From a virus, in IMG/VR virus record IMGVR_UViG_3300042337_000070, positions 43,943 to 107,942 of that record: 64,000 bases of DNA. One strand, written 5' to 3'. The translations under genes and the position numbers were made by a program. Under the pieces are notes generated by a model. It was not told the origin of the DNA. It did not search any database and was given only the letters and a program-made list of their open reading frames with translations. Below are positions 1,740-27,077 of this stretch, one piece after another; position 1 is the stretch's first letter; the number at the start of each line of letters is the position of its first letter.

Positions 1740-1769
1740 GGTATTTCTTCCTCTTCGGTTACAAGAAAT

Positions 1770-1796
1770 GGGAAGGAAGCACTTCACTTCCTTCCC
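1770..1796 (-). terminator. Perfect 10-bp hairpin between gp44 and the DUF262-type gene
   Basis: GGGAAGGAAG (1770-1779) pairs with CTTCCTTCCC (1787-1796) around a 7-base loop; on the minus strand ATTTCTT follows. It lies in the leader of the DUF262-type gene, downstream of its promoter, so it may be a weak terminator for gp44 transcripts or a 5' UTR structure of the next gene. The U tract is imperfect. Confidence 0.5.
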
Positions 1797-1797
1797 A

Positions 1798-1813
1798 CTG
1801 TCGAAATCGACAG
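1798..1813. promoter_or_regulatory. Operator-like palindrome CTGTCGA-AA-TCGACAG
   Basis: Perfect 7-bp inverted repeat with a 2-base centre, immediately downstream of the minus-strand -10 box at 1821-1826, so it would cover roughly +1 to +16. This is the classic position for a dimeric repressor operator. A half-site (CTGTCGA) also lies in the gp45 promoter spacer near 4210. Confidence 0.5.
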
Positions 1814-1820
1814 TATGTAT

Positions 1821-1849
1821 ATACTACTATATTGACTTAGGAATGTCAA
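1821..1849 (-). promoter_or_regulatory. Sigma70-like promoter for the DUF262-type gene
   Basis: On the minus strand TTGACA (1849-1844), 17-base spacer, TAGTAT (1826-1821). It overlaps the end of gp44 closely and gives the inserted gene transcription independent of the clamp operon. Confidence 0.75.
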
Positions 1850-1852
1850 GCA

Positions 1853-2791
1853 TTATTTCACTTCACATTCGATCATAATCTCAGTGAGGCAAGCAACAAG
1901 ATTCAATTCTTGATCGGCAACAAATGCCGACTGATACTGATACTTTGCCAGTGTAACAACCGCAACAGGGATTGTCTCTGGTTTCAGATACTCATACAGG
2001 TTATCATAAACAGAACGATAGATGCGAGTAGGATCGATGTCAGAATTTAACACAACCCATTTACGCATGGCAGTGAAGTCTTTATCTTTGATAGACTTGA
2101 TTAGTTCATTGAGGCTGCGAACGCTATCAAGTTGAGAAACAAGACCAGAATCAATGCCTCCAGAAACAGAATACCGTTGTAACTCATTAAGAGTTCTGCG
2201 ATAATCCGGAAAATACTTTTCAACGACCTTTGCGAGGACTTGCTTGTCATATTCCACACCCTCTTTTGAAACGATCTGTTCCAGACGCTTGAACATTCTG
2301 CCAGCCATTTGAGGCTTCTCGTTGTTCTTGAGCGTAAAGTCCACAACAGAACAACGAGAATGAATAGCGTCTTTGATCTTCGCTTTGAAATTACAAGTGA
2401 AGATGAATGAACAGTTAGAAGAAAACTTTTCGATAACACCTCTTAAGGCATCTTGAGTGTCAGGTGTTAGACCGTCGGCCTCGTCTAGAATGATAACCTT
2501 ACGTCCGCCAGTCAGAGATACAGTTGACGCATATCCAACGACCTTCGTTCTTAGAACATCGATACCACGTTCCTCAGATGAATTGATAAAGAGGTAGTTA
2601 CAACCAATCTCGTCACACATGGCCATGGCTGCGGTCGTCTTACCGCAGCCAGCAGGACCTGACAATAGAAGATTTGGAATCTCACCATTGTTCACATACT
2701 CTTGAAACGCTTTCTTTATCCGATCGGGGAGAATACAGTCCTCAATCTTATGAGGTCTGTAGCGTTCGACCCAGAGGAAGTCTTCACTCAT
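1853..2791 (-). CDS. 44: Clamp-loader large subunit, AAA+ ATPase (gp44)
   Basis: 312 residues, close to T4 gp44 (about 319). Residues 7-13 read WVERYRP, the usual clamp-loader opening; Walker A GPAGCGKT at 45-52; Walker B ILDEAD at about 101-106; a sensor-1 type TCN and an SRC arginine-finger motif (HSRC) follow. In T4 four gp44 and one gp62 form the loader that opens and closes the gp45 ring during leading and lagging strand synthesis and late transcription. ATG at 2791 was preferred to the longer frame because AAAGGA sits 5 bases upstream and the start overlaps the stop of the small membrane protein gene before it. gp62 is displaced from its normal downstream position by the DUF262-type gene. 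Confidence 0.95.
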   Translation of the reverse strand: MSEDFLWVERYRPHKIEDCILPDRIKKAFQEYVNNGEIPNLLLSGPAGCGKTTAAMAMCDEIGCNYLFINSSEERGIDVLRTKVVGYASTVSLTGGRKVIILDEADGLTPDTQDALRGVIEKFSSNCSFIFTCNFKAKIKDAIHSRCSVVDFTLKNNEKPQMAGRMFKRLEQIVSKEGVEYDKQVLAKVVEKYFPDYRRTLNELQRYSVSGGIDSGLVSQLDSVRSLNELIKSIKDKDFTAMRKWVVLNSDIDPTRIYRSVYDNLYEYLKPETIPVAVVTLAKYQYQSAFVADQELNLVACLTEIMIECEVK

Positions 2792-2948
2792 TGTCATCCT
2801 TTCCATAACGAATTGCATTCATATACATTATAACAGACACTAGCAGGAAAAACAACCAGTGCATAATGTCGTCATGGTCTAATGACCAGAAAACGAGAGC
2901 AGCCATAAGATTGGCTGCCCCTACAATTTCAAATGCTAGTTCAATCAT
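2784..2948 (-). CDS. Small membrane protein, 54 residues
   Basis: Short frame read directly from the gap: MIELAFEIVGAANLMAALVF, then a charged WSLDHDD loop and a second hydrophobic stretch WLFFLLVSVIMYMNAIRYG, ending KDDNE. Two predicted membrane segments. Its ATG overlaps the TGA of the upstream gene (ATGA) and its stop overlaps the gp44 start, so it is tightly embedded in the operon, which is good evidence that it is real. No family recognised. A possible role in placing replication proteins at the membrane is a guess only. Confidence 0.7.
   Translation of the reverse strand: MIELAFEIVGAANLMAALVFWSLDHDDIMHWLFFLLVSVIMYMNAIRYGKDDNE
2827..2855 (-). promoter_or_regulatory. Possible weak sigma70-like promoter before gp44
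   Basis: TTGTTT, 17 bases, TATAAT on the minus strand inside the 54-residue gene. The -10 is perfect and the spacer matches the other promoters here, but the -35 matches only at TTG. Confidence 0.3.
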
Positions 2949-3241
2949 GGTGCGGTCTTTCTTAGAACCTCATCATAGAAAGTTTCAAACTGATTGTTCT
3001 CTTCGACCTCATCATTGTAGTTTGCCTTGAAGTAAACCTTAGCGAGACGACGAATCATTCGCTTATCCACACCCAACTTATCGAATGTCTCACCGATAAT
3101 CTCTTTCTGTAAATCTCGCTCTGCACCAACACGAGTCATGGAGTCATTTAGTTCCATGATTGCCTTACGAAGAACCTTTTTATCTTCTGGTGATAGAGCC
3201 TCGACAGAAGTGGTTGCGCTATTGTGACCGATCATACCCAT
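2945..3241 (-). CDS. DsbA-like dsDNA-binding late transcription protein (tentative)
   Basis: 98 residues, soluble and helical. Begins MGMIGHNSATTSVEALSPED; the end (FKANYNDEVEENNQFETFYD) resembles the C-terminal NEEFExxY pattern I associate with T4 DsbA, a small double-stranded DNA-binding protein linked to late transcription. A central LGVDKRMIRRLAKVY helix fits DNA binding. GGAG lies 9 bases before the ATG at 3241. It sits between the clamp and clamp-loader genes, consistent with a transcription or replication accessory role. The family call is tentative; it could be an unrelated small helical protein. Confidence 0.45.
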   Translation of the reverse strand: MGMIGHNSATTSVEALSPEDKKVLRKAIMELNDSMTRVGAERDLQKEIIGETFDKLGVDKRMIRRLAKVYFKANYNDEVEENNQFETFYDEVLRKTAP

Positions 3242-3242
3242 T

Positions 3243-3512
3243 TCACTTTACTCCATCTTTTAGTTGAATGATTGCAGAAGGATTGATGCAAAGAAATCCA
3301 TCACCATGTCCTTTCACATAGTCGAAAGGTTCGACAGCATATCCACCAGCATCAATGCACGATTCTTTGAATGCTTTACGATGGGCCATCCATTCGTTTG
3401 AATCTGTGATAGCCCAGTAAAGAAACACTATCACAAAAAGTATAGTGCTGACAATGTAAGCGGCAAATGAGACTTCCGCCCACAGAATGTTTCCCTCATA
3501 ATCTCTAAACAT
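3243..3512 (-). CDS. Single-pass membrane protein, 89 residues
   Basis: MFRDYEGNILWAEVSF then a membrane segment AAYIVSTILFVIVFLYWAI (about residues 16-34), followed by a cytoplasmic-type domain with a CIDAGGY stretch and FLCINPSAIIQL near the end. ATG at 3512 shares its A with the gp45 stop (TGATG), and GGAG sits 8 bases upstream inside gp45, so I use this start rather than the longer TTG frame. Translation is likely coupled to gp45. No family recognised. Confidence 0.75.
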   Translation of the reverse strand: MFRDYEGNILWAEVSFAAYIVSTILFVIVFLYWAITDSNEWMAHRKAFKESCIDAGGYAVEPFDYVKGHGDGFLCINPSAIIQLKDGVK

Positions 3513-4165
3513 CACTTCGACTCCAAAGCGATCCAATACTTTAGATTACCTGATGTGTTTTCAAACTTGGCAAATGCACCCGCCTGAACCTCTACGGTAT
3601 AATCATCAGGAAGAAGCTTGAGATTATCAGTCTTAAACGTGGCAGTGAAGTCCTTGCCAGCATAATCACCGATCTTCTGCACACCGTCATTAGACGTATC
3701 ATTAGACTTCTCATGAATCTTAAGAAGCAACTCGCCGTCCTTGCCAATGACAGATAGATTTGGTAGGTTAATCATTGATGCGACCTTGATTAGCTTTGCT
3801 GAGGTTGCATTAGGTAGAGAGAAACTTGTGGTGATATCCTTGAGAACAAGTTCCTTATCTGGAGGGGTGATGATAAGGTTTGGTGAACATGCACGATAAC
3901 TAATGACGAGTTCGCCGTCATTTAGTGTTACGGTCTCGCCATTGAATGAGATTTCTGGGTTCTTTAGAGTCGTCAGAATACCTAGAAACTGATTCAGATC
4001 ATAGATGCCGAACTGAGTTGGAATATCGTCACCCAGAGTTGCTTCGACCAGAATGGACTTTTCAGGAGAAATAGTTCGCTGTATTCTTCCTTTATTGAGG
4101 ACTGCGCCGCTGTTGATAGAGGCAAAATTCTTAAGTACCGATAGAGTTTTTTCACTAAGTTGCAT
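3512..4165 (-). CDS. 45: Sliding clamp, DNA polymerase processivity factor (gp45)
   Basis: 217 residues (T4 gp45 is about 228). MQLSEKTLSVLKNFASIN at the N-terminus, GIYDLNQFLGIL in the middle and GNLKYWIALESK at the end follow the gp45 pattern of two repeated clamp domains. In T4 the gp45 trimer tethers the polymerase and also activates late transcription through gp33/gp55, so it links replication to the late promoters seen at 23-64 kb. RBS AAAAGGAG lies upstream of ATG. It has its own promoter at 4192-4220, overlapping the end of the kinase gene. Confidence 0.93.
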   Translation of the reverse strand: MQLSEKTLSVLKNFASINSGAVLNKGRIQRTISPEKSILVEATLGDDIPTQFGIYDLNQFLGILTTLKNPEISFNGETVTLNDGELVISYRACSPNLIITPPDKELVLKDITTSFSLPNATSAKLIKVASMINLPNLSVIGKDGELLLKIHEKSNDTSNDGVQKIGDYAGKDFTATFKTDNLKLLPDDYTVEVQAGAFAKFENTSGNLKYWIALESK

Positions 4166-4178
4166 CCTATACTCCTTT

Positions 4179-4769
4179 TCAAGATTGTTTCATTATATGC
4201 GATTTATGTTCGACAGTCAAGAATATTTCGACTGACTTCTTTAGGTCCTCAATTGTTCCTTCGTTATGAATGATGAAGTCAACTGGCTCTTTCCTCCATG
4301 CAGTTTCCGACACATGCATCTTAGAAAGTTCTTCCTCAGTGGGTGAAGGGTCTCGACGCACCCAAACTATCTTACCGCCGACACTCCGGATAAACTCGAT
4401 CTCATTCGGGAATCTACAATCAGAGATAACAACATCTTCATATCCCATCATGCGTTTCTCTAATGCAGCAATCCAGATGTTATCTGCGATGCCATGGCGA
4501 CATGCCTCTGTTCCCATACGCTGTAGAATAAGACGAGGGGTTACCTCGTATCCCATCTTATTTGACCACCAAGGATCAACCTTCTCACGAAAGGTCCTTG
4601 AGGCATTCGAGTCACCTTCTAGAAGACCCCGAGGCCACATAAAGATTGTGGCAACGGCATCTTTCAAAGCATCGGCAAATGCAAACTTGTGATACTGATG
4701 TTCCCTTACGAGAACATCAGCCACGGTGCTTTTGCCGGACCCAATGTATCCGACAATCCCAATAATCAT
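4179..4769 (-). CDS. 1: Deoxynucleoside monophosphate kinase (gp1-like)
   Basis: 196 residues. P-loop GYIGSGKS at 7-14, then KFAFADALKDAV (the FADxLK substrate motif of phage dNMP kinases), a conserved ILQRMGTEACR segment and VISDCRFPNEIEFI, which is the DxRFPNE signature of this family. T4 gp1 phosphorylates dTMP, dGMP and hydroxymethyl-dCMP but not dCMP, a step needed when modified bases are incorporated. The start at 4769 overlaps the stop of the glycosyltransferase gene by ATGA, replacing the longer frame. The pairing of a nucleotide kinase with a glycosyltransferase may be meaningful for DNA modification. Confidence 0.88.
   Translation of the reverse strand: MIIGIVGYIGSGKSTVADVLVREHQYHKFAFADALKDAVATIFMWPRGLLEGDSNASRTFREKVDPWWSNKMGYEVTPRLILQRMGTEACRHGIADNIWIAALEKRMMGYEDVVISDCRFPNEIEFIRSVGGKIVWVRRDPSPTEEELSKMHVSETAWRKEPVDFIIHNEGTIEDLKKSVEIFLTVEHKSHIMKQS
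4192..4220 (-). promoter_or_regulatory. Sigma70-like promoter for gp45
   Basis: Minus strand TTGACT, 17 bases, TATAAT. The spacer begins GTCGAAC, so the -35 region contains CTGTCGA, one arm of the palindrome found at the DUF262-type promoter. It lies inside the 3' end of the dNMP kinase gene. Confidence 0.75.
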
Positions 4770-5596
4770 CTTAAGTTTCCTGACAAACTTGCAACTGCGG
4801 GGAGGTCTCCTTGGAACCCGTAGGTTCCAACGTGAGTGGTTTTCATCCAAGGACACAACCAAACCTTAAGTCCAATTGCTCGTGCATTCTGACAGAACAT
4901 ATAATCTTCTGACAGATAACGATGTGACTGTGGGTCGATCACGGTATCAAAGTAAGCATGAATGTATCGTGAACCATCAAAGTTTGCCTGACCAACATGG
5001 TCTGGCTTATAATGAAGGTGTGGAAACTCTTCGGCATACTTATCAAACACTTCACGCTTGACCATCATGAAACCTGTGCCGATTTCCATAACCTCTACAG
5101 GTTCGCTGATCTTGAATGATGTTGTGCCTGGGACTGGGTTGAATACAAAGTCACCTGTTACTCCATCTAGTTCACCAGGATTAAAACCTTCCTTCAACTT
5201 GATACCTTCATTTGTCTTGATGGAGTTACGAGTAACTGCGTTACAGATGTTGCTCCAGTTAATAGACTTCTTTGGATATGGTCCACCAGCAATGTCAAGA
5301 TCAAGAGCTAGGAGAGCAAGGATGTCCTGAGGGTTGTATTGAATGTCTGAGTCAATGAATAGAAGATGTGTGCATCCCGAACGAAGAAACTCATCAACAA
5401 GGTAGTTTCTAGCACGGGTGATTAGAGATTCATTAAAGATAAATGAGAAGCGGCATTCGATACCATACTGAATACAGGTTGCCTGTAGATCGAGGCAAGC
5501 CTTTGCATAAAGGCCGAAGCACTGTCCACCGTAACATGGTGTAGCGACAAAGATTTTCTTTTGTCTCAATTCATCACTTGAAATTTTTATTTCCAT
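4766..5596 (-). CDS. GT-A type glycosyltransferase
   Basis: 276 residues. IFVATPCYGGQCF near residues 15-27, then THLLFIDSDIQYNP with the DSD (DxD-like) metal and nucleotide-sugar motif at 82-84, MEIGTGFMMVKREVF in the middle and YLSEDYMFCQNARAIG, the SED-type acceptor motif typical of phage-encoded GT2-like enzymes. The start at 5596 has GGAG six bases upstream. The acceptor cannot be read from sequence: modified DNA bases, host surface glycans or a virion protein are all possible. It overlaps the dNMP kinase gene and shares its operon. Confidence 0.8.
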   Translation of the reverse strand: MEIKISSDELRQKKIFVATPCYGGQCFGLYAKACLDLQATCIQYGIECRFSFIFNESLITRARNYLVDEFLRSGCTHLLFIDSDIQYNPQDILALLALDLDIAGGPYPKKSINWSNICNAVTRNSIKTNEGIKLKEGFNPGELDGVTGDFVFNPVPGTTSFKISEPVEVMEIGTGFMMVKREVFDKYAEEFPHLHYKPDHVGQANFDGSRYIHAYFDTVIDPQSHRYLSEDYMFCQNARAIGLKVWLCPWMKTTHVGTYGFQGDLPAVASLSGNLR

Positions 5597-5613
5597 ATTG
5601 TTCTCCATAAGCG

Positions 5614-5645
5614 AATAGCGCAGGGACAAAAGTCCCCACGCTATT
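5614..5645 (-). terminator. 14-bp near-perfect hairpin, tetraloop
   Basis: AATAGCGCAGGGAC (5614-5627) pairs with GTCCCCACGCTATT (5632-5645), with wobble pairs, around AAAA. It separates the winged-helix gene from the glycosyltransferase gene. No clear U tract, so it may be a terminator, a processing site or a leader structure of the glycosyltransferase operon. Confidence 0.45.
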
Positions 5646-5666
5646 ATATAGTAAAGTTTTTAGAAA

Positions 5667-5894
5667 TTATCCGTCAGCAAGGCGATAGAATGCGGTGCGC
5701 TTACCCTTTACATTGCGATAATTAGTGTAGATCGTATAACCCCACTCACGAAGGTCGTAAACTCGCTTTGCAACATTATCACGAGGAACACGGGCCATCG
5801 AAGCAATCTTGTCGGCGGTAACGCCGGCGCCAGTGTTATAACGGGCGAGAACAGTTTCAATCTTCTCAATCTGAGACTTGCGAGGTGTAGCCAT
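5667..5894 (-). CDS. Small winged-helix DNA-binding protein
   Basis: 75 residues: MATPRKSQIEKIETVLARYN, then VTADKIASMARVPRDNVAKR (helix-turn-helix) and a YDLREWGYTIYTNYR wing with a basic KGKRTAFYRL end. This is a compact winged-helix fold of the kind used by phage regulators. ATG at 5894 follows GGAG at 9 bases. Its leader carries two competing perfect stems (5920-5987), so autoregulation is a plausible inference. Which promoters it might bind is unknown. Confidence 0.7.
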   Translation of the reverse strand: MATPRKSQIEKIETVLARYNTGAGVTADKIASMARVPRDNVAKRVYDLREWGYTIYTNYRNVKGKRTAFYRLADG

Positions 5895-5919
5895 TATATA
5901 ATTCTCCATTCGTGTTTTA

Positions 5920-5987
5920 TTGATGCTGCTGGTCGTGAAAGGAAAGGCCCGTGTATAACCAGCAGCATCAAAGTTATTATACACGGG
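5920..5987 (-). promoter_or_regulatory. Leader with two mutually exclusive perfect stems
   Basis: Stem A: TTGATGCTGCTGGT (5920-5933) with ACCAGCAGCATCAA (5958-5971), 14 bp. Stem B: CCCGTGTATAA (5948-5958) with TTATACACGGG (5977-5987), 11 bp. The arms interleave (A1, B1, A2, B2) and share base 5958, so both cannot form fully at once. It lies directly upstream of the winged-helix gene. A TATAAT inside B2 lacks a -35 at 17 bases. Candidates are an attenuator-like RNA switch or overlapping operators. Confidence 0.6.
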
Positions 5988-6022
5988 TATTCATTTAGAC
6001 TTTGGACCAATCGATTAGAGGA

Positions 6023-6059
6023 AAGATTGGATACCCAAACTTATCGAGTATCCAATCTT
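6023..6059 (-). terminator. 12-bp hairpin downstream of the AAA+ gene
   Basis: AAGATTGGATAC (6023-6034) pairs with GTATCCAATCTT (6048-6059), loop 13 bases; on the minus strand TTTCC follows. It is a likely terminator or mRNA-end structure for the AAA+ gene, although the same bases are also an in-frame open stretch after its TGA. Confidence 0.45.
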
Positions 6060-6093
6060 CACCGTTGATCCTTTTGACTGTATAATCTTTATT

Positions 6094-7353
6094 TCAGAAA
6101 GCGATCTCTTCTCCAACAACCTTCTGCTCTTCGGTAGCAGGAGCGACAGTCGGATCGATTGTTTCGTCAACCTTCTTATACAGTTCCATAAAAGCGTTCT
6201 TAGTATCGATATCAAAGCGATTCAGACACAGCTCAATCGACTTGGCACGATTCTGATTGAAAATGGCATATGCCTCGCAGATATGAACCAGACGACGAGT
6301 GGAGATGATTTCGGACAAAGCACCTTCATAAAAGGACTTGCGAATAACATCAGCCCAGGTCACCAGCTTATCAACAAAGTCACCAGCATCAATACCAGAA
6401 GCACCGAGAACATTCTTTAGAATCTTAGTCTCGGTCTTGACCGGCGGATACTCCTGCTCCATTGTAATAGAGAAACGCTCCAGAAAGGCTTCGTTCATAA
6501 CATTGGTGCCGATGAAGCGACCGTCGTCAGAACCCTTACCCTTAGTGTTAGCGGTCGCAATGACATTGAAACCAGACTCAGGAGTAACCAGTCGATTGAT
6601 CTTTTTGAGAAACACCGACTTGCCCTCAAGGACAGGCTGCAAACACATCAGCTTGTTAGAACCGAGGTCAACCTCGTCAAGCAGAAGAATTGCACCACGC
6701 TGCATAGCGATAATAACAGGACCGTCCTGCCAGACAGTATGACCATCAACAAGGCGGAAACCACCGATCAAATCGTCTTCGTCAGTCTCAATAGTAACAT
6801 TGACACGAACACACTCACGCTTTTCCGCAGCGCAAACCTGTTCAATCATCATCGTCTTACCGTTACCAGAAAGACCAGTGATATAAGCCGGATAAAACTT
6901 CTTGGACTTGATAATAGCACGAACGTCGGCAAAGTTACCGAACGGAACGTAGCCAGAAGCCTTAGAAGGAACCAGCGACACTTCACTTGAAGTAGAAGTG
7001 GAAGGAGCAGACATAGCAACGGTCGGAGCCATAGCCACTACGCTATCGACAACAGGAATATCCGACTGAATATTCGCAGGAGCGACCTTATTGGTAGCAG
7101 TCTTCTTAGGAGCCTTGACCTTAGTGACAGCGGGTGCCATAGCAACATTAACGGCAGCACCATGCTCGGGAATAGCATACAGACCACGACCCACACGGCG
7201 GGAAGCGTCGTTCAAGAACCAGTGAGGCCAGGACAAATTATATTTTTCGACAACACTCTTGATTTGGGCACGGGACACTTCACGGACAGCACCAAATTCA
7301 AAACGCACCTTGTCAAGGAACTCGGTGCGGTTAACGGAAGAAGACTTAGCCAT
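6094..7353 (-). CDS. cobS-like: AAA+ ATPase, MoxR/CobS-like
   Basis: 419 residues. An N-terminal basic domain (1-62) is followed by an Ala/Pro/Val-rich linker (about 65-125), then the AAA+ core: Walker A GLSGNGKT 160-167, DDLIGGFRL (194-201), Walker B LLLDEVD 223-229, VIATANTKGKGSDDGR and an FLERF arginine-finger region. Members of the MoxR/CobS group pair with VWA-domain partners to remodel protein complexes, as in cobaltochelatase CobS-CobT. The adjacent upstream gene encodes such a VWA protein. cobS-like genes are common in cyanophage T4 relatives, but whether they act on cobalamin is not shown by sequence. Start at 7353 after AAAGGAAA; promoter at 7390-7418. Confidence 0.85.
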   Translation of the reverse strand: MAKSSSVNRTEFLDKVRFEFGAVREVSRAQIKSVVEKYNLSWPHWFLNDASRRVGRGLYAIPEHGAAVNVAMAPAVTKVKAPKKTATNKVAPANIQSDIPVVDSVVAMAPTVAMSAPSTSTSSEVSLVPSKASGYVPFGNFADVRAIIKSKKFYPAYITGLSGNGKTMMIEQVCAAEKRECVRVNVTIETDEDDLIGGFRLVDGHTVWQDGPVIIAMQRGAILLLDEVDLGSNKLMCLQPVLEGKSVFLKKINRLVTPESGFNVIATANTKGKGSDDGRFIGTNVMNEAFLERFSITMEQEYPPVKTETKILKNVLGASGIDAGDFVDKLVTWADVIRKSFYEGALSEIISTRRLVHICEAYAIFNQNRAKSIELCLNRFDIDTKNAFMELYKKVDETIDPTVAPATEEQKVVGEEIAF

Positions 7354-7389
7354 ACGATGTTTTCCTTTCACGATTTCAAATTATGACAT

Positions 7390-7418
7390 ATTATAGCAGA
7401 GGAAACGGGGGTTGTCAA
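7390..7418 (-). promoter_or_regulatory. Perfect consensus sigma70 promoter for the AAA+ gene
   Basis: Minus strand TTGACA, 17 bases, TATAAT, an exact match to the bacterial housekeeping consensus. The -35 box lies in the loop and stem of the terminator of the preceding gene. Confidence 0.88.
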
Positions 7419-7427
7419 GACCCCCGT
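7405..7427 (-). terminator. GC-rich hairpin after the VWA gene
   Basis: ACGGGGG (7405-7411) pairs with CCCCCGT (7421-7427) across a 9-base loop; TTTCC follows on the minus strand. It ends the VWA transcript while its loop carries the next -35 element. Confidence 0.6.
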
Positions 7428-7442
7428 AACCTATTGTTTTTT

Positions 7443-9674
7443 CTACGCTACCTTCTTTGCTTTCCCAGTGACGTGGTCAATGAAATTGCGAAGAAGGACA
7501 CGGTTGACAGCCTTTCTAGCGGCGAACTTGGAGAACGCTTTGGCCATATGCTTGGTAGACTTGTTGGTATCGATTTCCAGATTATTATCTTCGAATCTAA
7601 GAGCCCTAGAATCGATCACATAATAATCATCGTATCCTTCACTCTTGACAGGATAGAACTTGTTCTCCTTCCAGAACTTGGAGACCTTCTGGAGATAATC
7701 ATAGTTGCCTTCAACACCAAAACGACGGGTGAAAGTTCCCCAAGATTCAGCGAAAAGAAAGAAACCGATTAGATTACAGTTCGTCTTCTCCTTGAGCAAA
7801 CGAAGATACTGGACAGTGTTGGTAGCACGATTAGACGGACCCCAACCACGAGGATCGATCTCATAAGTTTTACCAGTCTCCTTGTCATTGTAATAAAACT
7901 GCTTTTTACGAAGCGAATTTTTCGTCGTATCATGCACAAGACCAGAACAAACATTCGACTCACCGTCAGTGAGAATAATGGTATTGACAACCTCCAGCTT
8001 ATACTTTGCACGGAAATCATTGATGATCTTAGGTGCAACATAAATTGCCTCATTCAAAGGCGTGCCAGAGAGACCTTCACAGTTGAGACGATGACCATTA
8101 CCCATAGCCCAGAGAAAAGCCATAGCGTCATTCAATTCAGTAAGATTCATCTTAGATGAAAGGAACTGACGCATAGTGAGATAACCAAATGCCATGCTAT
8201 TTTCGACACTGCTGTGATCCCACGGAGACTTAGGATCATAATCATCGTCGGAATCCTTGAACGCATACACTTCAAACGGCACTTGAATCTGCTTGCAGAA
8301 GAGAACCAGAGTAAAGAGCTGCGACATGGTGTGTCGAAGATTATAGTCCATTGATCCTGACCAATCAAGAAACATGACAAAGCCATGGTTCTTACCCTCA
8401 GGGATAACAGACAGACGACGGAAGATATCATCGCTGTGCTTATAAGCATGGAGTTTGTTGGTATCGATCATACCAGTCTTAGCAGTTTGAATGCGAGAAT
8501 AAATCTCGGCACTCTTACGCTGCTCAAACTCCTTGACGAGGAAAGAGATAGTCTCCTTTTCTTTCTGACGCCATTCGGTAAACTCACGACGGGCGTTTTC
8601 GAAAACCTCAACAGTCAGGCTGCGACTATAACGAGGATTAACATTCGTTATTTCTTTACGCCAGTCATTCAGGACTCTTTTATAATCATGGACATGCTTG
8701 GCATAATTGAACTGAGGCATATTGACATAAACATAATCAACATTGGCATTCTGCACCAGTTCTTCACGCTTTTCTTCCCAAGCACGATCGGTCTGTGACT
8801 CGGGAACATTGTCCGTTACCTTACCCTGGGCACCAGCGCCAGAGCCAGACGAATTACCATTTGAACCAAGATCACCCTGACCACGGGTTACACCACCCTC
8901 CGAATCGTCGTCGTTACCCTCGCCTTCACCCTCATCGGAGTCGGACTTGGAACCTTCATTAGAATCGAAATCATCGGCAGAGTCGCCATCGCTATCCCAA
9001 TCAAAACCATCATCACCTTCACCCTCCTCAGAATCACCGACACCAATATCGATATGCATATCATTTTCAATCTGAGACTTGCAGAAACGATAAATCTGTT
9101 CGACAACATCGACAGTTTCATCGAACTTTTCAAGATTCTCAACCTTTTTGAGAAAGGACCGCTCTTCGGGAGTAAACTCAATAGATAGATTGACATTACC
9201 GCCCTTGAAATAGATATTCAAGCGGTCGATGAAATTCATCGAATTGATATCACGACCCTTCGTGCCGAAAAAGTCACGTTCAATCAATTCCTGATAACCA
9301 AGAAGATAGTTTTTACGAAGACCAGGATAACGGCGCTTCTGGCGCTTATCGATACGGGCATCTTCGATAACATTCAAAAAGCCAGCGACGGTTCGCATAA
9401 GACGAGAATCAACATCGTCACCAAAGATACGCTTCGCAATACCCTGATAAGCAGTCTTATACTCTTCGGCAGAAGGAGTATCGATAGCATGACCAGTCTC
9501 ATGACCGATAAGCAAATGCTCCAGATCAGTAGAGATGTTCTGCCATACGGGAAGCATGAGAACACGATTCTTTAGGTCGAACATAGCGGTCTTGATACCA
9601 GACTGGTGCTGAACCGTAATGTTTTCAGTAGCAAGCAGTTTAGCAAGCAGAGAATTAGAGTTTACCGTTTGCAT
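7443..9674 (-). CDS. cobT-like: VWA-domain protein with N-terminal HExxH metalloprotease motif (CobT-like)
   Basis: 743 residues. HETGH at 58-62 followed by NVIEDARIDK at 101-110 gives a zincin-like pair (HExxH plus downstream E) also seen in CobT-type N-termini. A long acidic, Gly/Ser-rich linker spans roughly 205-285. The C-terminal VWA domain begins near 430 with MIDAS motif DWSGS (about 436), then a conserved T (SGTPLNEA) and LTDGESN. Such proteins work with MoxR/CobS ATPases; the partner gene is next downstream with its own promoter. Substrate unknown: chaperone-like remodelling or limited proteolysis of a host or phage target are the main options. Confidence 0.82.
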   Translation of the reverse strand: MQTVNSNSLLAKLLATENITVQHQSGIKTAMFDLKNRVLMLPVWQNISTDLEHLLIGHETGHAIDTPSAEEYKTAYQGIAKRIFGDDVDSRLMRTVAGFLNVIEDARIDKRQKRRYPGLRKNYLLGYQELIERDFFGTKGRDINSMNFIDRLNIYFKGGNVNLSIEFTPEERSFLKKVENLEKFDETVDVVEQIYRFCKSQIENDMHIDIGVGDSEEGEGDDGFDWDSDGDSADDFDSNEGSKSDSDEGEGEGNDDDSEGGVTRGQGDLGSNGNSSGSGAGAQGKVTDNVPESQTDRAWEEKREELVQNANVDYVYVNMPQFNYAKHVHDYKRVLNDWRKEITNVNPRYSRSLTVEVFENARREFTEWRQKEKETISFLVKEFEQRKSAEIYSRIQTAKTGMIDTNKLHAYKHSDDIFRRLSVIPEGKNHGFVMFLDWSGSMDYNLRHTMSQLFTLVLFCKQIQVPFEVYAFKDSDDDYDPKSPWDHSSVENSMAFGYLTMRQFLSSKMNLTELNDAMAFLWAMGNGHRLNCEGLSGTPLNEAIYVAPKIINDFRAKYKLEVVNTIILTDGESNVCSGLVHDTTKNSLRKKQFYYNDKETGKTYEIDPRGWGPSNRATNTVQYLRLLKEKTNCNLIGFFLFAESWGTFTRRFGVEGNYDYLQKVSKFWKENKFYPVKSEGYDDYYVIDSRALRFEDNNLEIDTNKSTKHMAKAFSKFAARKAVNRVLLRNFIDHVTGKAKKVA

Positions 9675-10264: not shown

Positions 10265-11887
10265 TTACTTAACCTTTCTGAAAACGAAAACCGGTTCATA
10301 TTTGAGCATGATCTTTTTACCATTATTCTCAATCTGACAAAAGTTTTTCATTTTACCTTCTAGGATTGTTTCTCTCTCTTCCTCACCGGTTAGTGGGTTG
10401 ATTGTAACTGTCTCGCCTGTTTCGACCATTCGATTACCACCAGGCATCTGAGCAAGTGCCATCTTTAGAGTTGTAACATACTCCATACCTAGTTCTTTTA
10501 AAATGTTACAAGAATCTTCTTCTAGAGGCAGAAGATTGTTATCAAATGCAGCATCAGCAATATTCCAGAGAAGATAACGATCCTTTCTCAAATATCTAAC
10601 GGCAGTCTCTAGAGTAGGTCTTAGAAATCCATCAACCCAATCTGCATACTGAGAAAACTTATGACAAGATTGTTCGGGATCATCAGAGTAAACTTCCTTA
10701 GCAAAATAAGGAGGTGAGGTAAACACTAGATCGAGTTTACCTTCATATTTCTGAAATCCTGGTTGAAACTGTGCCATTTCAGATCCACACTGAAAAATTT
10801 CATATGTGTGTGACTTCGGGAACAGACTTCCAGATTCTCTAACCTGTTCATTGAAGAAATCGGCCACTTCATGATATTTGGTTCGACCCGAATGGGTGTT
10901 ATGATCGGTGTTAGGATCTGTACCTATGTAATGTATGTTGCGTTTATCATCCACTGACATAGCACCAACGATGCGGCCTGCCCATCCTGAGGAAGGATCC
11001 CATATATTGATCTGGTCCTGATCCCTGATGTGATCGGTAAAACGCTCATAAAGATAACGAGCGGTGAGAGGTGGAAAGTTGACCGCATACTGACAGAAGG
11101 ACACACGGAATGATTTGAGACCCATAGGGAACACTTTCTGTCCACGCTTAAAGAGCCGAATGTTGTATTTCATCGATCTATTAGGATTGACATTTGTGAT
11201 GGTTCTTTCTGCTTGCTTGATAGCAAAGGTGTAGTCAACAATAACGTTCTGTTTTTTACCCAAGGTGGCAGAGTACCCAGTGTATTGCTTGTCCTCTTTG
11301 ACAGGACAAAACCAATAGTCCCACTCATCAGATTTCAATTCTTCCATTTTAGCAACAAACTGTTCGGATGATTCGACAGAGAATGTTGAGTTACCAATCT
11401 TAACAACATCTCCGAATGAGATTGGTGTTGAGTGATGATAGAATGAGTCTCTTTTGAAATGCCTTGAAGCATATGTAATAAAGGTTTCTAGATATGCGTC
11501 ATCGGCGAAATAGTCATAGATCGACTTAGACTTACCCTTTGTCGAATATGAAATGCCTGTCTTCATCATGGTCGGGAACCACTGATTGACAGCATTACCT
11601 ACTATAGAGGTATTACGAATAACATCTTTCTCACCCGTGCGAAGATCGACTGTCTCAAACTCATGCACAGGGAAGCCAACCATCTTTTGAAAGTTATCAA
11701 TGATACCTTCTTTATTAAATCCTACTCTTGGAGGAATGCCTTTGTTATCCCATAGATTGACTACGGTTTTTCGTAGGTCGATCACCCATTGACGAAATTC
11801 AACCTCATTCATCCATAACAGTTCCTCAAATGTCTTATTGACATGCGAGTTTAGGAGTTCATCGTTTCTTTCATAGAACCATTGCAT
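10265..11887 (-). CDS. SAM-dependent DNA methylase-like protein with long N-terminal extension
   Basis: 540 residues. SAM-binding motif I WDPSSGWAGRIVGA begins near residue 296; the catalytic motif TSPPYF lies near 389-394 (S/D-PPY class, N4-cytosine or N6-adenine amino methylases). About 280 residues precede motif I, including KGIPPRVGF and FPMGLKSFRVSFCQYAVN, which I do not recognise and which could be a target-recognition or a second catalytic domain. The start overlaps the upstream glycosyltransferase-like gene by 17 bases with AAGGA inside that gene, so translation is coupled. Linked to a PLP enzyme and a sugar transferase, it may act in base hypermodification rather than simple methylation. 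Confidence 0.75.
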   Translation of the reverse strand: MQWFYERNDELLNSHVNKTFEELLWMNEVEFRQWVIDLRKTVVNLWDNKGIPPRVGFNKEGIIDNFQKMVGFPVHEFETVDLRTGEKDVIRNTSIVGNAVNQWFPTMMKTGISYSTKGKSKSIYDYFADDAYLETFITYASRHFKRDSFYHHSTPISFGDVVKIGNSTFSVESSEQFVAKMEELKSDEWDYWFCPVKEDKQYTGYSATLGKKQNVIVDYTFAIKQAERTITNVNPNRSMKYNIRLFKRGQKVFPMGLKSFRVSFCQYAVNFPPLTARYLYERFTDHIRDQDQINIWDPSSGWAGRIVGAMSVDDKRNIHYIGTDPNTDHNTHSGRTKYHEVADFFNEQVRESGSLFPKSHTYEIFQCGSEMAQFQPGFQKYEGKLDLVFTSPPYFAKEVYSDDPEQSCHKFSQYADWVDGFLRPTLETAVRYLRKDRYLLWNIADAAFDNNLLPLEEDSCNILKELGMEYVTTLKMALAQMPGGNRMVETGETVTINPLTGEEERETILEGKMKNFCQIENNGKKIMLKYEPVFVFRKVK

Positions 11888-12857
11888 TCAACATTCCTTC
11901 AAACTGTTCGTAATACTGATTAGGTGTTTTGATACGTTCAAACAATTTTTCTTTAACAGCATCAAACTTAGAGTTACTACTATCATACTTCAATTCATTA
12001 AATTTGTCAACATATTCTTGATACGATCCTATCCGTTGCCAATTACTGGCAACGAAGTTATCAGAAGAGTCATAATCTTGCCAGACAAACGGATAAACAC
12101 CACATGATACCGCTTCAATATACCTAGCCGTTGTTGCTTTGTTGTCCATCCAGTTAAAGCAAAGAGTCGATTTAGCGGATAGTAGATAAGGAATAAGATC
12201 AATCATCTTCATCCACTTCTCATCTCTCTTAAAACCGTGAAAGCGTCCAATGAAAATGGCATTCATATTATTCTTATAAATCTCTTTTAGAATAGTGTGT
12301 CGTTGGTCACCTGATAGTTTACCATCAACGGTCTTACGCTTGTCTGATCCCCAATAGATAAAGTCAACGAAACGGTCAGTCTCAAACAACCGTGTCTGAT
12401 CCTTGATAAAGTGATACTTCATACCGTGAATGTTGCCGTCAAAGTCACATTCATCAATCGTTTGATATGAGATATCGAGTCCAGGAAACACTTTTGTGCG
12501 ATACAGTTCCTCATCATCTCGTCTATCGGAACGTAGAATGATAACTTTTTTACCATTTATGAAAGGCTTGATCAGGTCTAAATGTTCATTTGATCTTTTA
12601 AGATCAAGTGTATGAATTGCCCCAGGGATCCAATATGTAAACTCTGCCTCAGAAGGAATGATGATAATGTCCGCATTCTTGATAGCATCTATATCACGCT
12701 TGGGTTTCATGTTAAAACCAAAGTTGTAGTAATACCATTCATGCTCAGAATGCCTATTAACATACATTCTAAGCAATTCGAAGAACGAATCCATAATGTG
12801 GTGTAAAGGTTCGACATAGTTTGCCGAACTTCGAAGTCGAGCTATACAAATCTTCAT
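11871..12857 (-). CDS. GT-B type glycosyltransferase-like protein
   Basis: 328 residues. MKICIARLRSSANYV at the N-terminus; ADIIIIPSEAEFTYWIPGA; INGKKVIILRSDRRDD; then NAIFIGRFHGFKRDEKWMKM and ARYIEAVSCGVYPFVWQDYD, which looks like the E-x7-CG-x-P donor-site region of GT-B enzymes. The ATG at 12857 overlaps the TGA of the PLP-fold gene (ATGA). No signal peptide or membrane segment, so it is a cytoplasmic enzyme. DNA base glycosylation is an attractive inference from its neighbours but is not shown; the fold call itself is moderate. Confidence 0.6.
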   Translation of the reverse strand: MKICIARLRSSANYVEPLHHIMDSFFELLRMYVNRHSEHEWYYYNFGFNMKPKRDIDAIKNADIIIIPSEAEFTYWIPGAIHTLDLKRSNEHLDLIKPFINGKKVIILRSDRRDDEELYRTKVFPGLDISYQTIDECDFDGNIHGMKYHFIKDQTRLFETDRFVDFIYWGSDKRKTVDGKLSGDQRHTILKEIYKNNMNAIFIGRFHGFKRDEKWMKMIDLIPYLLSAKSTLCFNWMDNKATTARYIEAVSCGVYPFVWQDYDSSDNFVASNWQRIGSYQEYVDKFNELKYDSSNSKFDAVKEKLFERIKTPNQYYEQFEGMLNAMVL

Positions 12858-13660
12858 CCTGCTACATTCCATACTAAACACGGGTCTTTTCGGGAGTGTC
12901 CTCCGTGATATTCTTTCATCACATGCCACACTTTTGCGTCATAGGTAGGTGCAGAAGGGTATGGCGTCACATGTTCTTTCTTCACTGGCTTATCAAACTT
13001 GTAAGGCGAACGGTGATAGATTGCTCGCCCAATTTCTCTGGGTGTCATTGTATGACCTACAGAGACGACATGAACCTCTGCATCAGGCCAGGCTAGCTGC
13101 AATGCTCTTGTGAGAGTGCCGCTTGATCCTACGGACCATACTTCTCGGGGAGAAATGGGTAGAGAACGAGCAACACGAATGAGACAAGCAATAGAAGTAG
13201 GATGTTCAACACCAATCGGCAAGAGGGATCTTGTGTCAGGTGATTCTGCAACATAGTCTTTTGCACGCTTTTGGGTAACAGGAAGCATTCCATTAGGTAC
13301 CCAATGATAAGTTGCTCCAAGTTCAATGCCTCGTTGTTGGTATTCATGCAGTTTATCCATTGATCTTTCTGCCATGAAGATCACGGCTTTTTTGTTATAG
13401 CGATTACAAATAAAGGGGAGAGAGATTTGTGCATATCCGGTAGCAGGTGATGATCCATACACCCACTCTTGTATGTTTGCATACTCAGGTGCATGACCAA
13501 TCAGATAGTCACCTGCTCTTGCTTTAGACCCAACAGAAAGAAGGTCATCCCGAACAACGTGATAACCTTCATGCTCTGTTATTACTGGTGGGGGATTGGG
13601 GTCAACCCAATTGCCGATAAGGCTTAGATAGTCTTCTGCTGTTTCATTGAATAATGTCAT
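12854..13660 (-). CDS. PLP-dependent enzyme, fold type II-like (ACC deaminase/Trp synthase-beta group)
   Basis: 268 residues. GSKARAGDYL places a candidate Schiff-base lysine at K46; SSPATGYAQIS at 70-80 resembles the SxxxGN/AxA cofactor loop; VWSVGSSGTLTRAL at 174-187 is the Gly-rich phosphate-binding loop. This order fits a shortened fold-type II PLP enzyme. The ATG at 13660 overlaps the upstream TGA (ATGA). A PLP enzyme is unusual in a T4-like phage. Together with the methylase-like and glycosyltransferase-like genes, it suggests an amino-acid-derived base modification. Substrate unknown. Confidence 0.7.
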   Translation of the reverse strand: MTLFNETAEDYLSLIGNWVDPNPPPVITEHEGYHVVRDDLLSVGSKARAGDYLIGHAPEYANIQEWVYGSSPATGYAQISLPFICNRYNKKAVIFMAERSMDKLHEYQQRGIELGATYHWVPNGMLPVTQKRAKDYVAESPDTRSLLPIGVEHPTSIACLIRVARSLPISPREVWSVGSSGTLTRALQLAWPDAEVHVVSVGHTMTPREIGRAIYHRSPYKFDKPVKKEHVTPYPSAPTYDAKVWHVMKEYHGGHSRKDPCLVWNVAG

Positions 13661-14558: not shown

Positions 14559-14587
14559 AGTATAGAGCATCATTCATCTTTTGTCAA
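14559..14587 (-). promoter_or_regulatory. Sigma70-like promoter for the accessory operon
   Basis: Minus strand TTGACA, 17 bases, TATACT, overlapping the last codons of gp46. It would drive the micro-genes, PLP enzyme, glycosyltransferase-like and methylase-like genes as one transcript. Confidence 0.8.
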
Positions 14588-16291
14588 GACAGAAAAGTTT
14601 TTTACCTTTTCAAACTTAAGGATTCTTTGAAAACGATCTAACATGGTATCCTTGTGAGAGATAACGAAGATATTGGTTCCTTTGTCTCCCATCTCCCACA
14701 TAATTTTAATGAACTCGTCAATACCAGTTGTATCCATTGCTCTATCCAAGATTTCATCAAACACTAAGATGTTGACGTTTACCGAGTTTTTAAGTTTAGC
14801 AATCTGACGCCATGTTAGGAGAATCGCAAGGTCAATTCGCAGTTTCTCGCCTTCACTGAAATTGTGGTAACTAAACTCGTCTCTGTAACGTGACTTGATA
14901 CTTTCCTCGAAAGATTCGTTGATATTGAAATTGACGAAGAAACCAAGTTTCGCCAGATACTTGTTAATGTGCTTGTTGATAATAGGAAGATACTGCTTGA
15001 TGATCTTCGTTTTAATGCCACCGTCTTTAAGGAGTGTGCTGGCCAGGTCGATGTATTGACGCTCATCTAAAAAGGTCTTCTTCTCTTCTTCGAGGGTGGA
15101 AAGATCATGTTCGACCTCGGAGAGTTGTCGTTCTGACTCTTGGATAGTTTTGTCTGATGTTGCGAAGTTTTCAATCTGCTCCACAACTTGTGAAAGATTA
15201 TGACGCAGATTGTTATAGGAAGACTTAGAAGACGAAACTTCCAACCGAAGTTTGTTGATTTGGACGACGATTTTTTCAATGGCATCAATCTCTAATAAGA
15301 CAGAATCAATTTGTTGTTCAACCTTATTTAGTCCTTCACTAAGTTCATGAATTTTAGCATGACCATCATCAACCATGCTCTTAGCAAACTCTGGGTTGAT
15401 TTCTTGACGACAGGTTGGACAATTACCACTTTCCGCAAAGAAGTCAATATCTTTAACATGCTTGTCACGATTGGCTTCCATCTTAGCACGAAAACCTAGT
15501 AGTTTTGAATGCTTGGACTTTAGAGGTGACAAATCGATGTTCTGATCTAACACAGTTTCGAGAGCGGATTCATGTTGTAGAACGATGCTCTTTTGTGTGT
15601 TTAGTTGATCTAATAAAGATGCTTCCTTACTTTTCAATTCAGCCAACTTCTCTTCGCTATTTGCTCTAAGAGAGGCAAGCGTTCTTTCAATGTAAGACTT
15701 ATTGTCAACCTTACTAGAAAGTTGAACACGATTACGTTCCAAGTTCTCACGATTGACCTGTAGTTTGTTTTTTACAACAGTTGACATAGCAGTGAAGATT
15801 TGAATGTCCAACAAATCTTCAATCACAGATCGTCTATCGTTTGCAGATAGCTGCATGAATGGAACAAACGATGCTGAACCAAGAATGACAACCTGCGTAA
15901 AAGATTTGTAGTTCATACGAAGAATGTTCTTCTCCAAATGCTCTTGATAATCTTTAGCCGCAGCATCTTGATTGATCATAACACCATCGATATAGATTTG
16001 AAAGACATTAGGCTTGACACCACGAATGACTTTATATCGATGGTTGTTAATGGTAAACTCTATTTCGGTCACACAGTTCTTACCGTTAATTGAGTTAACT
16101 ACGTTACCTTTGTTCACCTTACGAAATGGCTTACCAAAAAGCACAAAGCACAGGGCGTCAAGCACTGTTGACTTCCCTGCGCCGTTGTGACCCATAATCA
16201 ACGTGTTCTTATGGGAGTCTAGTTCAATTTCAGTAAACACATTTCCAGATGATAGGAAGTTTTTATATCTTATCACATGGAATGTAATCAT
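14570..16291 (-). CDS. 46: Recombination endonuclease subunit gp46 (SbcC/Rad50-like)
   Basis: 573 residues (T4 gp46 about 560). Walker A GHNGAGKST at 34-42 after an N-terminal FxSxGN pattern; long coiled-coil arms; zinc hook CPTC at 291-294; ABC signature HNFSEGEKLRIDLAI and Walker B ILVFDEILD near the end. With gp47 it processes double-strand ends for recombination-dependent replication and degrades host DNA in T4. The start lies two bases after FtsH, so the two genes are co-transcribed and probably co-translated. Confidence 0.95.
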   Translation of the reverse strand: MITFHVIRYKNFLSSGNVFTEIELDSHKNTLIMGHNGAGKSTVLDALCFVLFGKPFRKVNKGNVVNSINGKNCVTEIEFTINNHRYKVIRGVKPNVFQIYIDGVMINQDAAAKDYQEHLEKNILRMNYKSFTQVVILGSASFVPFMQLSANDRRSVIEDLLDIQIFTAMSTVVKNKLQVNRENLERNRVQLSSKVDNKSYIERTLASLRANSEEKLAELKSKEASLLDQLNTQKSIVLQHESALETVLDQNIDLSPLKSKHSKLLGFRAKMEANRDKHVKDIDFFAESGNCPTCRQEINPEFAKSMVDDGHAKIHELSEGLNKVEQQIDSVLLEIDAIEKIVVQINKLRLEVSSSKSSYNNLRHNLSQVVEQIENFATSDKTIQESERQLSEVEHDLSTLEEEKKTFLDERQYIDLASTLLKDGGIKTKIIKQYLPIINKHINKYLAKLGFFVNFNINESFEESIKSRYRDEFSYHNFSEGEKLRIDLAILLTWRQIAKLKNSVNVNILVFDEILDRAMDTTGIDEFIKIMWEMGDKGTNIFVISHKDTMLDRFQRILKFEKVKNFSVLTKDE

Positions 16292-16292: not shown

Positions 16293-18080
16293 TCAATATT
16301 CTCTTGTTGGCTTCTTCCCTACTAATAGATCCTTGATTTCTTGACCTGTTAGAGTTTCATATTCTAGCAGACCTTGTGCTAGTGTGTCAAGGTCTTTTCT
16401 CTTTTCGGTTAGAATCTTCTTTGCCATGGTATATCCTTCCTCGACGAGGCGCTTGATTTCCATATCGACAATCTTTTGTGTCTCTTCGGCAATCTTAGCA
16501 GAATGAAATACATCAGCATTTGGTTCTGTATAAGCCATACGTCCTAGAAGTGGTGAGAAACCTAGCTGAGTAACCATTGCTCTTGCGAGTTTAGTTGCTT
16601 GCTGAATATCTCCTGCGGCGCCAGATGTAACTCTATGTTCACCAAAAATGATTTCTTCTGCTACACGTCCACCCATAGCCATAGCAAGTTGAGCAATCAT
16701 TTCTTCGTAAGACTGTGAGATTTGGTCACGATCTGGAATTGATTGAACCATACCCAATGCTCGTCCACGTGGTATGATAGTTGCCTTATGAATTGGGATC
16801 GAGCCAGTCATGTTGATAGAAACGAGAGCATGACCACCTTCATGATATGCTGTCATCTTCTTTTCATCATCAGTCATAAGAAGCGTTCTGTGTTCGGCGC
16901 CCATCATGATCTTATCACGGGCATCTTCAAATTCTTGAAGTGTAACAATCCGCTTTGAACGGCGAGCGGCAAGCAATGCTGCCTCATTAACAAGATTTGC
17001 TAGATCGGCGCCAGAAAAGCCAGGTGTTCCCTTTGCGACAGTTCTAATATCAACATCAGGTCCAATTGGAACTTTGCGTGTGTGAACTTTTAGAATCTTC
17101 TCACGACCAACAAAGTCTGGATTAGGAACTTGAACCTGTCTATCGAAACGACCTGGACGAGTTAGGGCTTTATCTAGAACATCTACACGATTGGTAGCAG
17201 CAATGACGATAACACCTTCGTTATCATTGAATCCGTCCATTTCTACTAGCATTGCGTTTAGAGTTTGATCACGTTCGTCATTACCACCCATACCTGTAGC
17301 TCTTGATCGACCAACGGCGTCAATCTCATCAATGAAGACAATGCAAGGTGCATTCTTCTTTGCTTGATCAAACATATCTCTAACTCTAGATGCACCAACA
17401 CCAACAAACATTTCTACGAAGTCTGATCCAGAAATACTAAAGAAAGGAACACCTGCTTCACCAGCAACTGCCCTAGCTAGAAGAGTTTTACCTGTGCCAG
17501 GAGGACCAACGAGCAATACACCCTTTGGAATTTTACCACCAAGACGTTCAAACTTTTGTGGATTTTGTAAAAACTCTACAACTTCCTGCAAGTCTTCTTT
17601 TGCTTGATCAACACCAGCAACATCTTCAAATGTCTTTAGTGTAGAAGACTCAGTAAGCAGTTTTGCTTTTGACTTACCCATACCCATCATTCCACCAGGA
17701 CCACCGGCCGAACGGCGAGATAGCCACACCCATAGACCAAAGAATAGAAATACTGGTAGAAGATTAATAAGTAGATTTGTCCAGAATGATGCTTCTGTGT
17801 TATCAGCCTTAACAGTAATATTAACCTTGTGTTCTTCTAACTTAGGTAGAAGAGAAGAAAGGCCAGCAACGGTAGTTCTAAACTCTCTGTTGTCTGCGTT
17901 AAAGTGTCCTGTTAGCTGATTTCCTGCTACATAAACATCATGAACGTTGTTGCGTTCAACCTGACCGAGAAAGTCGGAATAACTAATTTCATTTGTTAGT
18001 TTGTGTTCGCCTGGCATAGCCATCCAATACAGGGCTACGGCCACAGCGAAAAAGATTATAATAGGTAACGTTTTCTTCAT
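16293..18080 (-). CDS. ftsH: Complete FtsH-type AAA+ zinc metalloprotease
   Basis: 595 residues, nearly full bacterial length (E. coli about 644, shorter tail here). Membrane segment 1 about 3-20, a periplasmic-type domain, segment 2 about 101-120, then Walker A GPPGTGKT 192-199, pore loop FVGVGA 225-230, Walker B VFIDEID 248-254, second region of homology with RPGRFDR, protease site HEGGH 413-417 and third ligand D491 in SGAAGDI. All catalytic residues are present, so it should be active in the host inner membrane. It lies between gp47 and gp46, which are adjacent or nearly so in T4. It could degrade host regulators, protect phage proteins or alter membrane quality control. Likely acquired from a bacterium. 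Confidence 0.95.
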
Positions 18081-24172: not shown

Positions 24173-24182
24173 CCCCGCCCTT
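24158..24182. terminator. Terminator of the gp23 operon, shared with the endonuclease 3' end
   Basis: AAGGGCGGGG (24158-24167) pairs with CCCCGCCCTT (24173-24182) over AATAA. On the minus strand the stem is followed by TTTCG, extending a run of five T, so it terminates gp23 transcripts. The loop contains the stop codon of the plus-strand endonuclease. A second small hairpin GGTTAG/CTAACC lies at 24188-24204. Confidence 0.8.
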
Positions 24183-24214
24183 AGTTGGGTTAGTTGTTCT
24201 AACCTTCTGATATA

Positions 24215-25600: not shown

Positions 25601-25634
25601 TTTAGTTTCCTTCTTTCTTTTTAACTAAAGTTAA

Positions 25635-27044: not shown

Positions 27045-27065
27045 GTTTTAGATACTCCTTTTCCT

Positions 27066-27072
27066 TATTTAG
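27066..27072 (-). promoter_or_regulatory. Late promoter motif ACTAAATA before gp22
   Basis: CTAAATA on the minus strand 22 bases above the gp22 start, followed by AAGGAAAAGGAG. It would express gp22 and gp23 together. Confidence 0.65.
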
Positions 27073-27077
27073 TATTT

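Follow-up and report, generated by a model that had tools for sequence, protein, structure and literature searches.

What do three overlapping genes for a pyridoxal phosphate (PLP) enzyme, a glycosyltransferase (GT) and a methylase-like protein (MT) do in a T4-like virus? The window analyzed here is a 64,000-nucleotide stretch (positions 43,943 to 107,942) of the 107,942-base IMG/VR virus record IMGVR_UViG_3300042337_000070, whose gene order is T4-like, and the three genes lie on its minus strand. We propose that they probably constitute a post-replicative pathway of DNA base hypermodification, a possibility raised in a preliminary description of the locus from its sequence. The computational support for this reading is strong, and we regard it as well supported but not proven: the PLP enzyme groups with the family found in the modification cassette of phage M6, the fold of the GT is nearest to DNA glucosyltransferases, the PLP enzyme and MT are fused or co-occur in other genomes, and one bacterial locus joins all three to a restriction gene.

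Organization of the locus

Read along the minus strand, the order is PLP enzyme (13660-12854), GT (12857-11871) and MT (11887-10265). The PLP enzyme has 268 amino acids (aa) from an ATG at 13660, with an upstream GTG start possible at 13666 (hence 268-270 aa). The open reading frame (ORF) of the GT as listed opens at a GTG at 12929 (352 aa); homologues support an internal ATG at 12857, which gives a GT-B glycosyltransferase of 328 aa resembling the beta- and alpha-glucosyltransferases (BGT and AGT) of T4. MT, an amino-methyltransferase-fold protein, has 540 aa. With the homologue-supported ATG starts, the PLP stop overlaps the GT start by 4 bases (ATGA, 12854..12857) and the GT stop overlaps the MT start by 17 bases (11871..11887), so that the overlapping triad first described is present in full. 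Because of these overlaps we infer that the three genes share one transcript; promoter-like matches (15 against 13.6 expected) and terminator-like matches (4 against 3.0 expected) are at chance level in the region. The genes are not chance ORFs, since each has conserved relatives in tens to hundreds of viral contigs: single-sequence queries confirmed 26 for the PLP enzyme, 193 for the GT and 220 for MT, and a profile search with the PLP enzyme gave at least 555 confirmed viral relatives.

The PLP enzyme

The PLP protein of the window has no Pfam match, missing PALP, a cutoff that its relatives exceed, and it matches phrog_7093 at 6e-35. The best PDB matches (Foldseek) of its AlphaFold2 model, built from 21 aligned sequences with a mean pLDDT of 91, are an aminocyclopropane carboxylate (ACC) deaminase homologue (1.9e-10), D-cysteine desulfhydrase and threonine deaminase. 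The predicted fold is thus the tryptophan-synthase-beta-like fold type II, and these matches together with the conserved lysine and SSG loop bear out the short fold-type II enzyme proposed from the sequence. Invariant in the alignments are the candidate Schiff-base lysine K48 of a G[ST]KxR motif, the glycine-rich loop S181-S182-G183 (both numbered from the GTG at 13666), a YDxK motif and a C-terminal WNV.

Similarity to gp52 of phage M6 was found by BLASTP (1e-9), hhalign (2.2e-12) and hidden Markov model search (1.6e-14). It spans most of the length, including the C-terminal PFPxxPxYDxKxW...WNv motif, and gp52 itself matches phrog_7093 at full length (2e-159). These comparisons place the PLP protein of the window in the M6 gp52 family. 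M6 gp52 is annotated as a threonine dehydratase and is located after gp51; it is reported (Lee et al. 2021) to act on an amino-acid substituent of the base. A predicted structure from Serratia phage IME250 also resembles the model (2.9e-5).

MT and its link to the PLP enzyme

Residues ~260-540 of MT form an amino-methyltransferase domain with motif I DPSSGW at 297-302 and motif IV SPPY at 391-394, both conserved in the alignment of relatives. The SPPY form is more frequent among methyltransferases that act on N4 of cytosine than among those that act on N6 of adenine. The match to N6_N4_Mtase (1.6e-5, 25.4 bits) is just below the Pfam cutoff of 26.7 and exceeds it when neighbouring stretches are included; MT also matches PADLOC MTase_II (1.8e-9) and phrog_12517 (1.4e-11). 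The methylase-like assignment of the preliminary description therefore stands, while its N-terminal part of 280 residues is to be shortened to ~240, a portion that is conserved within the family. No MT relatives were found in the plasmids searched.

The PLP enzyme is physically tied to MT in several ways. In the Erythrobacter phages ZS04 and R6L a ParB-methyltransferase carries it as an insertion that separates motif I from motif IV (812 aa in ZS04, PALP at 40.1 bits against a cutoff of 35), and in a bacterial contig (L275) it is fused to the C-terminus of MT (702 aa). In Microcystis phage Mae-JY30 and in alphaproteobacterial contigs (L278, L280, L281) it adjoins ParB-methyltransferase or methyltransferase genes, and in many loci of T4-like phages it lies directly or almost directly upstream of MT. 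Five records carry the PLP enzyme without an adjacent MT (G012, G013, G015, G016, G020), and in all five MT is elsewhere on the contig, mostly tens of kilobases away. In a 26-record panel, hand-picked from the retrieved loci so that its counts are not population frequencies, the PLP enzyme occurs in 11 records, ten of which have MT, while the remaining one, G017, has a different N6_N4 methylase. Pure hitch-hiking of the two genes in an insertion hot spot was rejected on account of this co-occurrence at a distance together with the fusions. In the loci counted, presence of the PLP enzyme excluded a GNAT gene beside MT. We claim no strict partner rule, as deaminase, 2-oxoglutarate (2OG) oxygenase and phosphoadenosine phosphosulfate (PAPS) reductase genes sit between the PLP enzyme and MT elsewhere: many relatives (among L313-L347) have a dCMP-deaminase-like gene in this position and some a 2OG oxygenase, and two loci (L258, L274) have a PAPS-reductase-like gene.

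The glycosyltransferase

The GT of the window has no match in Pfam or PHROG. Its homologue in phage HTVC008M (47% identity) weakly matches the PHROG 'beta-glucosyltransferase' (1.4e-4), and no other homologue was found among phage records at E 1e-5. In a profile search with 26 relatives, the top PDB sequence was 1bgt, T4 BGT (E 0.15), with a collinear alignment from residue ~165 onward to the C-terminus. When the AlphaFold2 model (pLDDT 90) was compared with 350,542 PDB chains by Foldseek, the top eight matches were all T4 BGT or AGT (E 4e-7 to 4.5e-6), and the first other glycosyltransferase followed at 1.4e-4. The modelled fold is therefore closest to the phage DNA glucosyltransferases and not to surface-sugar glycosyltransferases, which sharpens the initial assignment as a GT-B-like transferase. 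Residues R191, R195, R269 and E272 of T4 BGT, which we take to be its UDP-contact residues, align with K172, R185, R244 and E247 of the GT (alignment numbering; add 1 for the protein from the ATG). All four are invariant in 26 of 26 rows, R191 of BGT being replaced by lysine.

The triad in other genomes

The search of other genomes suggested at the outset showed that the triad recurs in three arrangements: PLP-GT-MT, MT-PLP-GT and [MT::PLP]-GT. The first is that of the clade of the window and of three further loci (L147, L207, L349). The second was found beside a DNA polymerase gene (L082), with an MT only ~27% identical. Four close relatives (L112, L121-L123), whose MT is 79-84% identical, have neither the PLP enzyme nor the GT at the locus, as if the two were gained or lost as a cassette. 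The gene after the PLP enzyme differs among sibling phages: L213 has a BGT-like GT there, L014 and L206 a GT-B of 457 aa that is unrelated to it. In L014 (6798-8168) and L022 (6788-8167), this GT-B of 457-460 aa, of another family (Glycos_transf_1), directly follows the PLP enzyme and replaces the BGT-like GT. In marine phages (L080, 3543-4652; L001, 9575-10717, which is HTVC008M gp106) the genes that often adjoin the BGT-like GT encode a DruA-like (PF14236) protein and a cytidylyltransferase-like one, which may be a further set of partners for the GT.

The third arrangement is that of L275, a contig from a metagenome-assembled genome (MAG) of the bacterium Bauldia litoralis. On one strand (139-7727) it encodes a 1203-aa protein with Mrr_cat_2, a ResIII helicase and eight HA domains, then a 227-aa protein, MT::PLP and GT. 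The closest PADLOC match of the 1203-aa protein is to the N-terminal portion of restriction enzymes of type IIG (1e-144), whose methylase part it lacks. From its gene content this looks like a restriction locus with the triad as its modification half, and bacteria may use the chemistry of the triad in this way.

Comparison with known base modification systems

In the T4 pathway, cytosine is glucosylated by way of 5-hydroxymethylcytosine (5-hmC) with the dCMP hydroxymethylase gp42, BGT and AGT. The window shares with it the GT fold, the UDP-contact residues and the T4-like genome background. T4 b-gt, however, adjoins gene 42, whereas here the GT shares an operon with MT and the PLP enzyme, and no gp42-like gene was found, so the sugar acceptor must differ from that of T4. 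Members of PF00303 (thymidylate synthase/dCMP hydroxymethylase) were found neither in the record of the window nor in 11 related records (one of them 174 kb long), all of which may be incomplete; a control search was positive in nine of 14 genomes. It therefore appears that a hydroxyl handle is supplied here neither as in T4 nor as in M6, and on this ground the T4-type 5-hmC pathway was rejected. C5-methylases (PF00145) were likewise not found in the 12 records. A search for TET/JBP hydroxylases (PF12851) had no match, yet its control also matched nowhere, so that it says nothing on their presence.

The thymidine hypermodification cassette of M6, whose DNA contains 5-(2-aminoethyl)deoxyuridine (PMC6449724), resembles the triad in its PLP enzyme family (phrog_7093) and in having several enzymes act in sequence. 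It comprises aGPT-Pplases, a nucleotide kinase, a radical SAM enzyme and gp52; the cassette of the M6-like phage SN1 has a hydroxymethylase, Nmad5, aGPT-Pplase1, kinase, radical SAM enzyme, PLP enzyme and aGPT-Pplase2 (PMC9476957). M6-type modification, however, starts from 5-hydroxymethyl-dU and proceeds through the kinase, Pplases and radical SAM enzyme (PMC9476957), where the triad has an amino-methyltransferase homologue, and the dUMP hydroxymethylase of the thymidylate synthase family that M6/ViI-type systems require was not among the genes of these possibly incomplete records. In the CmoA-CmoX-CmoY system of Synechococcus phage S-B43, 5-carboxymethylcytosine is formed and then converted to the glycine amide (PMC12783734). 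As proposed for the triad, a methyltransferase homologue puts a handle derived from S-adenosylmethionine (SAM) on DNA and a second enzyme elaborates it, and ParB-domain proteins are common neighbours (PMC12783734). CmoX, however, is a C5-methyltransferase homologue with SPPC and a carboxylate-binding arginine, followed by an amide ligase, whereas the triad has an MT of the SPPY amino-methyltransferase type, a PLP enzyme and a GT; a preliminary search, reported with CmoX, for N6/N4 carboxymethyltransferases that go with CmoA yielded no candidates (PMC12783734). Membership in this system was rejected because of the SPPY motif and the lack of C5-methylase matches in the 12 records. The ParB-DNA methylases of siphophages (phrog_498), some of which carry the PLP domain inside the methylase as in ZS04 and R6L, differ in that those two have no GT annotated nearby. 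The passages of the R6L report considered here call ORF1 a methylase, note its CcrM-like domain and make no mention of a PLP domain (PMC5463345).

The triad thus works like the T4, M6 and CmoX systems but belongs to none of them. In the literature searched, the combination of PLP enzyme, GT and MT was not found described; Iyer 2013 and Lee 2018/2021 lie outside that coverage, and parts of it may already have been predicted there. To our knowledge, every glycosylated phage base whose biosynthesis is known derives from a pyrimidine that was hydroxymethylated or hydroxylated as a nucleotide. An operon that combines a BGT-like GT with an M6-type PLP enzyme and a homologue of amino-methyltransferases implies a different route to glycosylation, and the chemistry is probably new. 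Many T4-like phages from freshwater and the sea have parts of this route, which could be a source of new enzymes for tagging DNA. The route is also relevant to cases like Krischvirus SAP, in which glucosylated cytosines were observed without identifiable genes (PMC13390438), though HTVC008M gave the only GT homologue at E 1e-5 among the phage records searched.

A hypothetical mechanism

We now put forward a mechanism in three steps. MT, as an SPPY-type amino-methyltransferase homologue, would first attach a group derived from SAM to a base of double-stranded DNA. Its target is probably an exocyclic amine, for which cytosine N4 is a likelier candidate than adenine N6. The PLP enzyme would next act on this base, with a substituent resembling an amino acid as its most likely target, and the GT would add a sugar from a UDP-sugar onto the resulting group. 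The bulky base would shield phage DNA from host nucleases. What the computation supports are the three folds and families, the physical and phyletic link of the PLP enzyme to MT, the recurrence of the triad and the lack of thymidylate-synthase-family genes in the records searched. DNA is the likely substrate because of the family memberships, the PLP-MT fusions and co-occurrence and the restriction locus; the order of the steps, the acceptor of the sugar and the protective role are likewise our inferences.

A more specific version is offered tentatively, as one possible chemistry. MT could move a larger, amino-acid-bearing group of SAM (e.g., 3-amino-3-carboxypropyl) to the exocyclic amine, the PLP enzyme would transform this group on DNA, and the BGT-like GT would glycosylate the product, with no need for a hydroxymethyl-pyrimidine nucleotide. 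Installation of such a group would explain why a PLP enzyme follows MT, and an amino-acid or amine handle would explain the Asp/Asn-hydroxylase-like 2OG oxygenase, the other 2OG oxygenases or the GNAT genes that lie beside MT in relatives.

Alternative explanations

Several observations weigh against base hypermodification by the triad. The PLP enzyme is only 22% identical to M6 gp52, and its reaction may therefore differ. The similarity of the GT to BGT is remote (sequence E 0.15, ~13% identity, TM score ~0.6), and the catalytic base D100 of BGT would correspond by strand order to the invariant D110 of the GT but is aligned elsewhere by MAFFT. The link to restriction comes from one MAG contig, and a sample of 385 genomes from the class of that MAG contained no other genome with a GT match. 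The slot that holds the triad in the window is variable, with genes that come and go. Finally, in the panel MT occurs without the PLP enzyme in eight of 18 records and the GT without both the PLP enzyme and MT in seven of ten, which means that the parts are separable. The co-occurrence counts indicate that the PLP enzyme depends on MT and not vice versa, and that the GT is an optional add-on.

The variable slot and the records with MT but no PLP enzyme are what would be expected if MT were an ordinary DNA methylase (N4-cytosine or N6-adenine) and the PLP enzyme and GT unrelated cargo for metabolism or host takeover; in relatives, the slot also holds peptide deformylase-like, 2OG-oxygenase and GNAT genes. 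Cargo of this kind would hardly be fused to MT in two different architectures, nor would carriers of the PLP enzyme have MT even tens of kilobases away, and neither the M6 base-modification family of the PLP enzyme nor the DNA glucosyltransferases that are the first fold matches of the GT point to it, so that we consider this explanation improbable. It is more unlikely still that the GT acts independently of MT and the PLP enzyme on a surface polysaccharide or lipid, in seroconversion or superinfection exclusion. The same record does have a sugar and glycosyltransferase cluster near tail genes (L193, 6563-13412, with a UDP-sugar dehydrogenase and a Glycos_transf_1 protein) and the GT adjoins a cytidylyltransferase-like gene in marine relatives, but the T4 DNA glucosyltransferases outrank all other fold matches and the GT lies beside the PLP enzyme and MT in several arrangements, outside the polysaccharide cluster. 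Least likely is action on RNA (e.g., tRNA, which carries aminocarboxypropyl and glycosyl additions) or on a small metabolite, since, even if the PLP fold is also that of enzymes of free amino acids, MT resembles DNA methylases (N6_N4_Mtase, Eco57I, type II methyltransferases), the L275 locus joins the genes to a restriction gene and the PLP domain is fused to a ParB-methyltransferase. Hypermodification of DNA bases is the reading that we retain.

Genomic neighbourhood and other features

The slot is bounded upstream by a gene for a T4 gp46-like SbcC recombination subunit (14570..16291, minus strand), named by synteny with the annotated HTVC008M genome, and downstream by a conserved phage peptidase gene (7443..9674, minus strand; phrog_459, 1e-186); both are conserved neighbours of the slot in relatives. 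A gp47-like gene also lies upstream of the triad, and clamp loader, sliding clamp, UvsW and UvsY were detected by Pfam in the record. Between the gp46- and gp47-like genes the window encodes a complete FtsH-like membrane protease (16293-18080, minus strand; FtsH_ext, AAA, Peptidase_M41), which is kept in its close clade (L006, L119, L122, L123). On the same strand, a deoxynucleotide monophosphate kinase-like protein (4179-4862; DNMK, 7.7e-20) of the T4 gp1 family is encoded in this genome without a detected dCMP hydroxymethylase, and ~4.6 kb downstream of MT is a conserved GT-A-like protein (4766-5629; weak Anp1 match, 6.8e-5) that occurs in many relatives. The sugar and glycosyltransferase cluster near the tail genes extends over 4669-13412 of L193 (~24,170-32,912 of the record) and includes a UDP-glucose/GDP-mannose dehydrogenase; beside it is a full-length acyl-CoA dehydrogenase, which is unusual in a phage.

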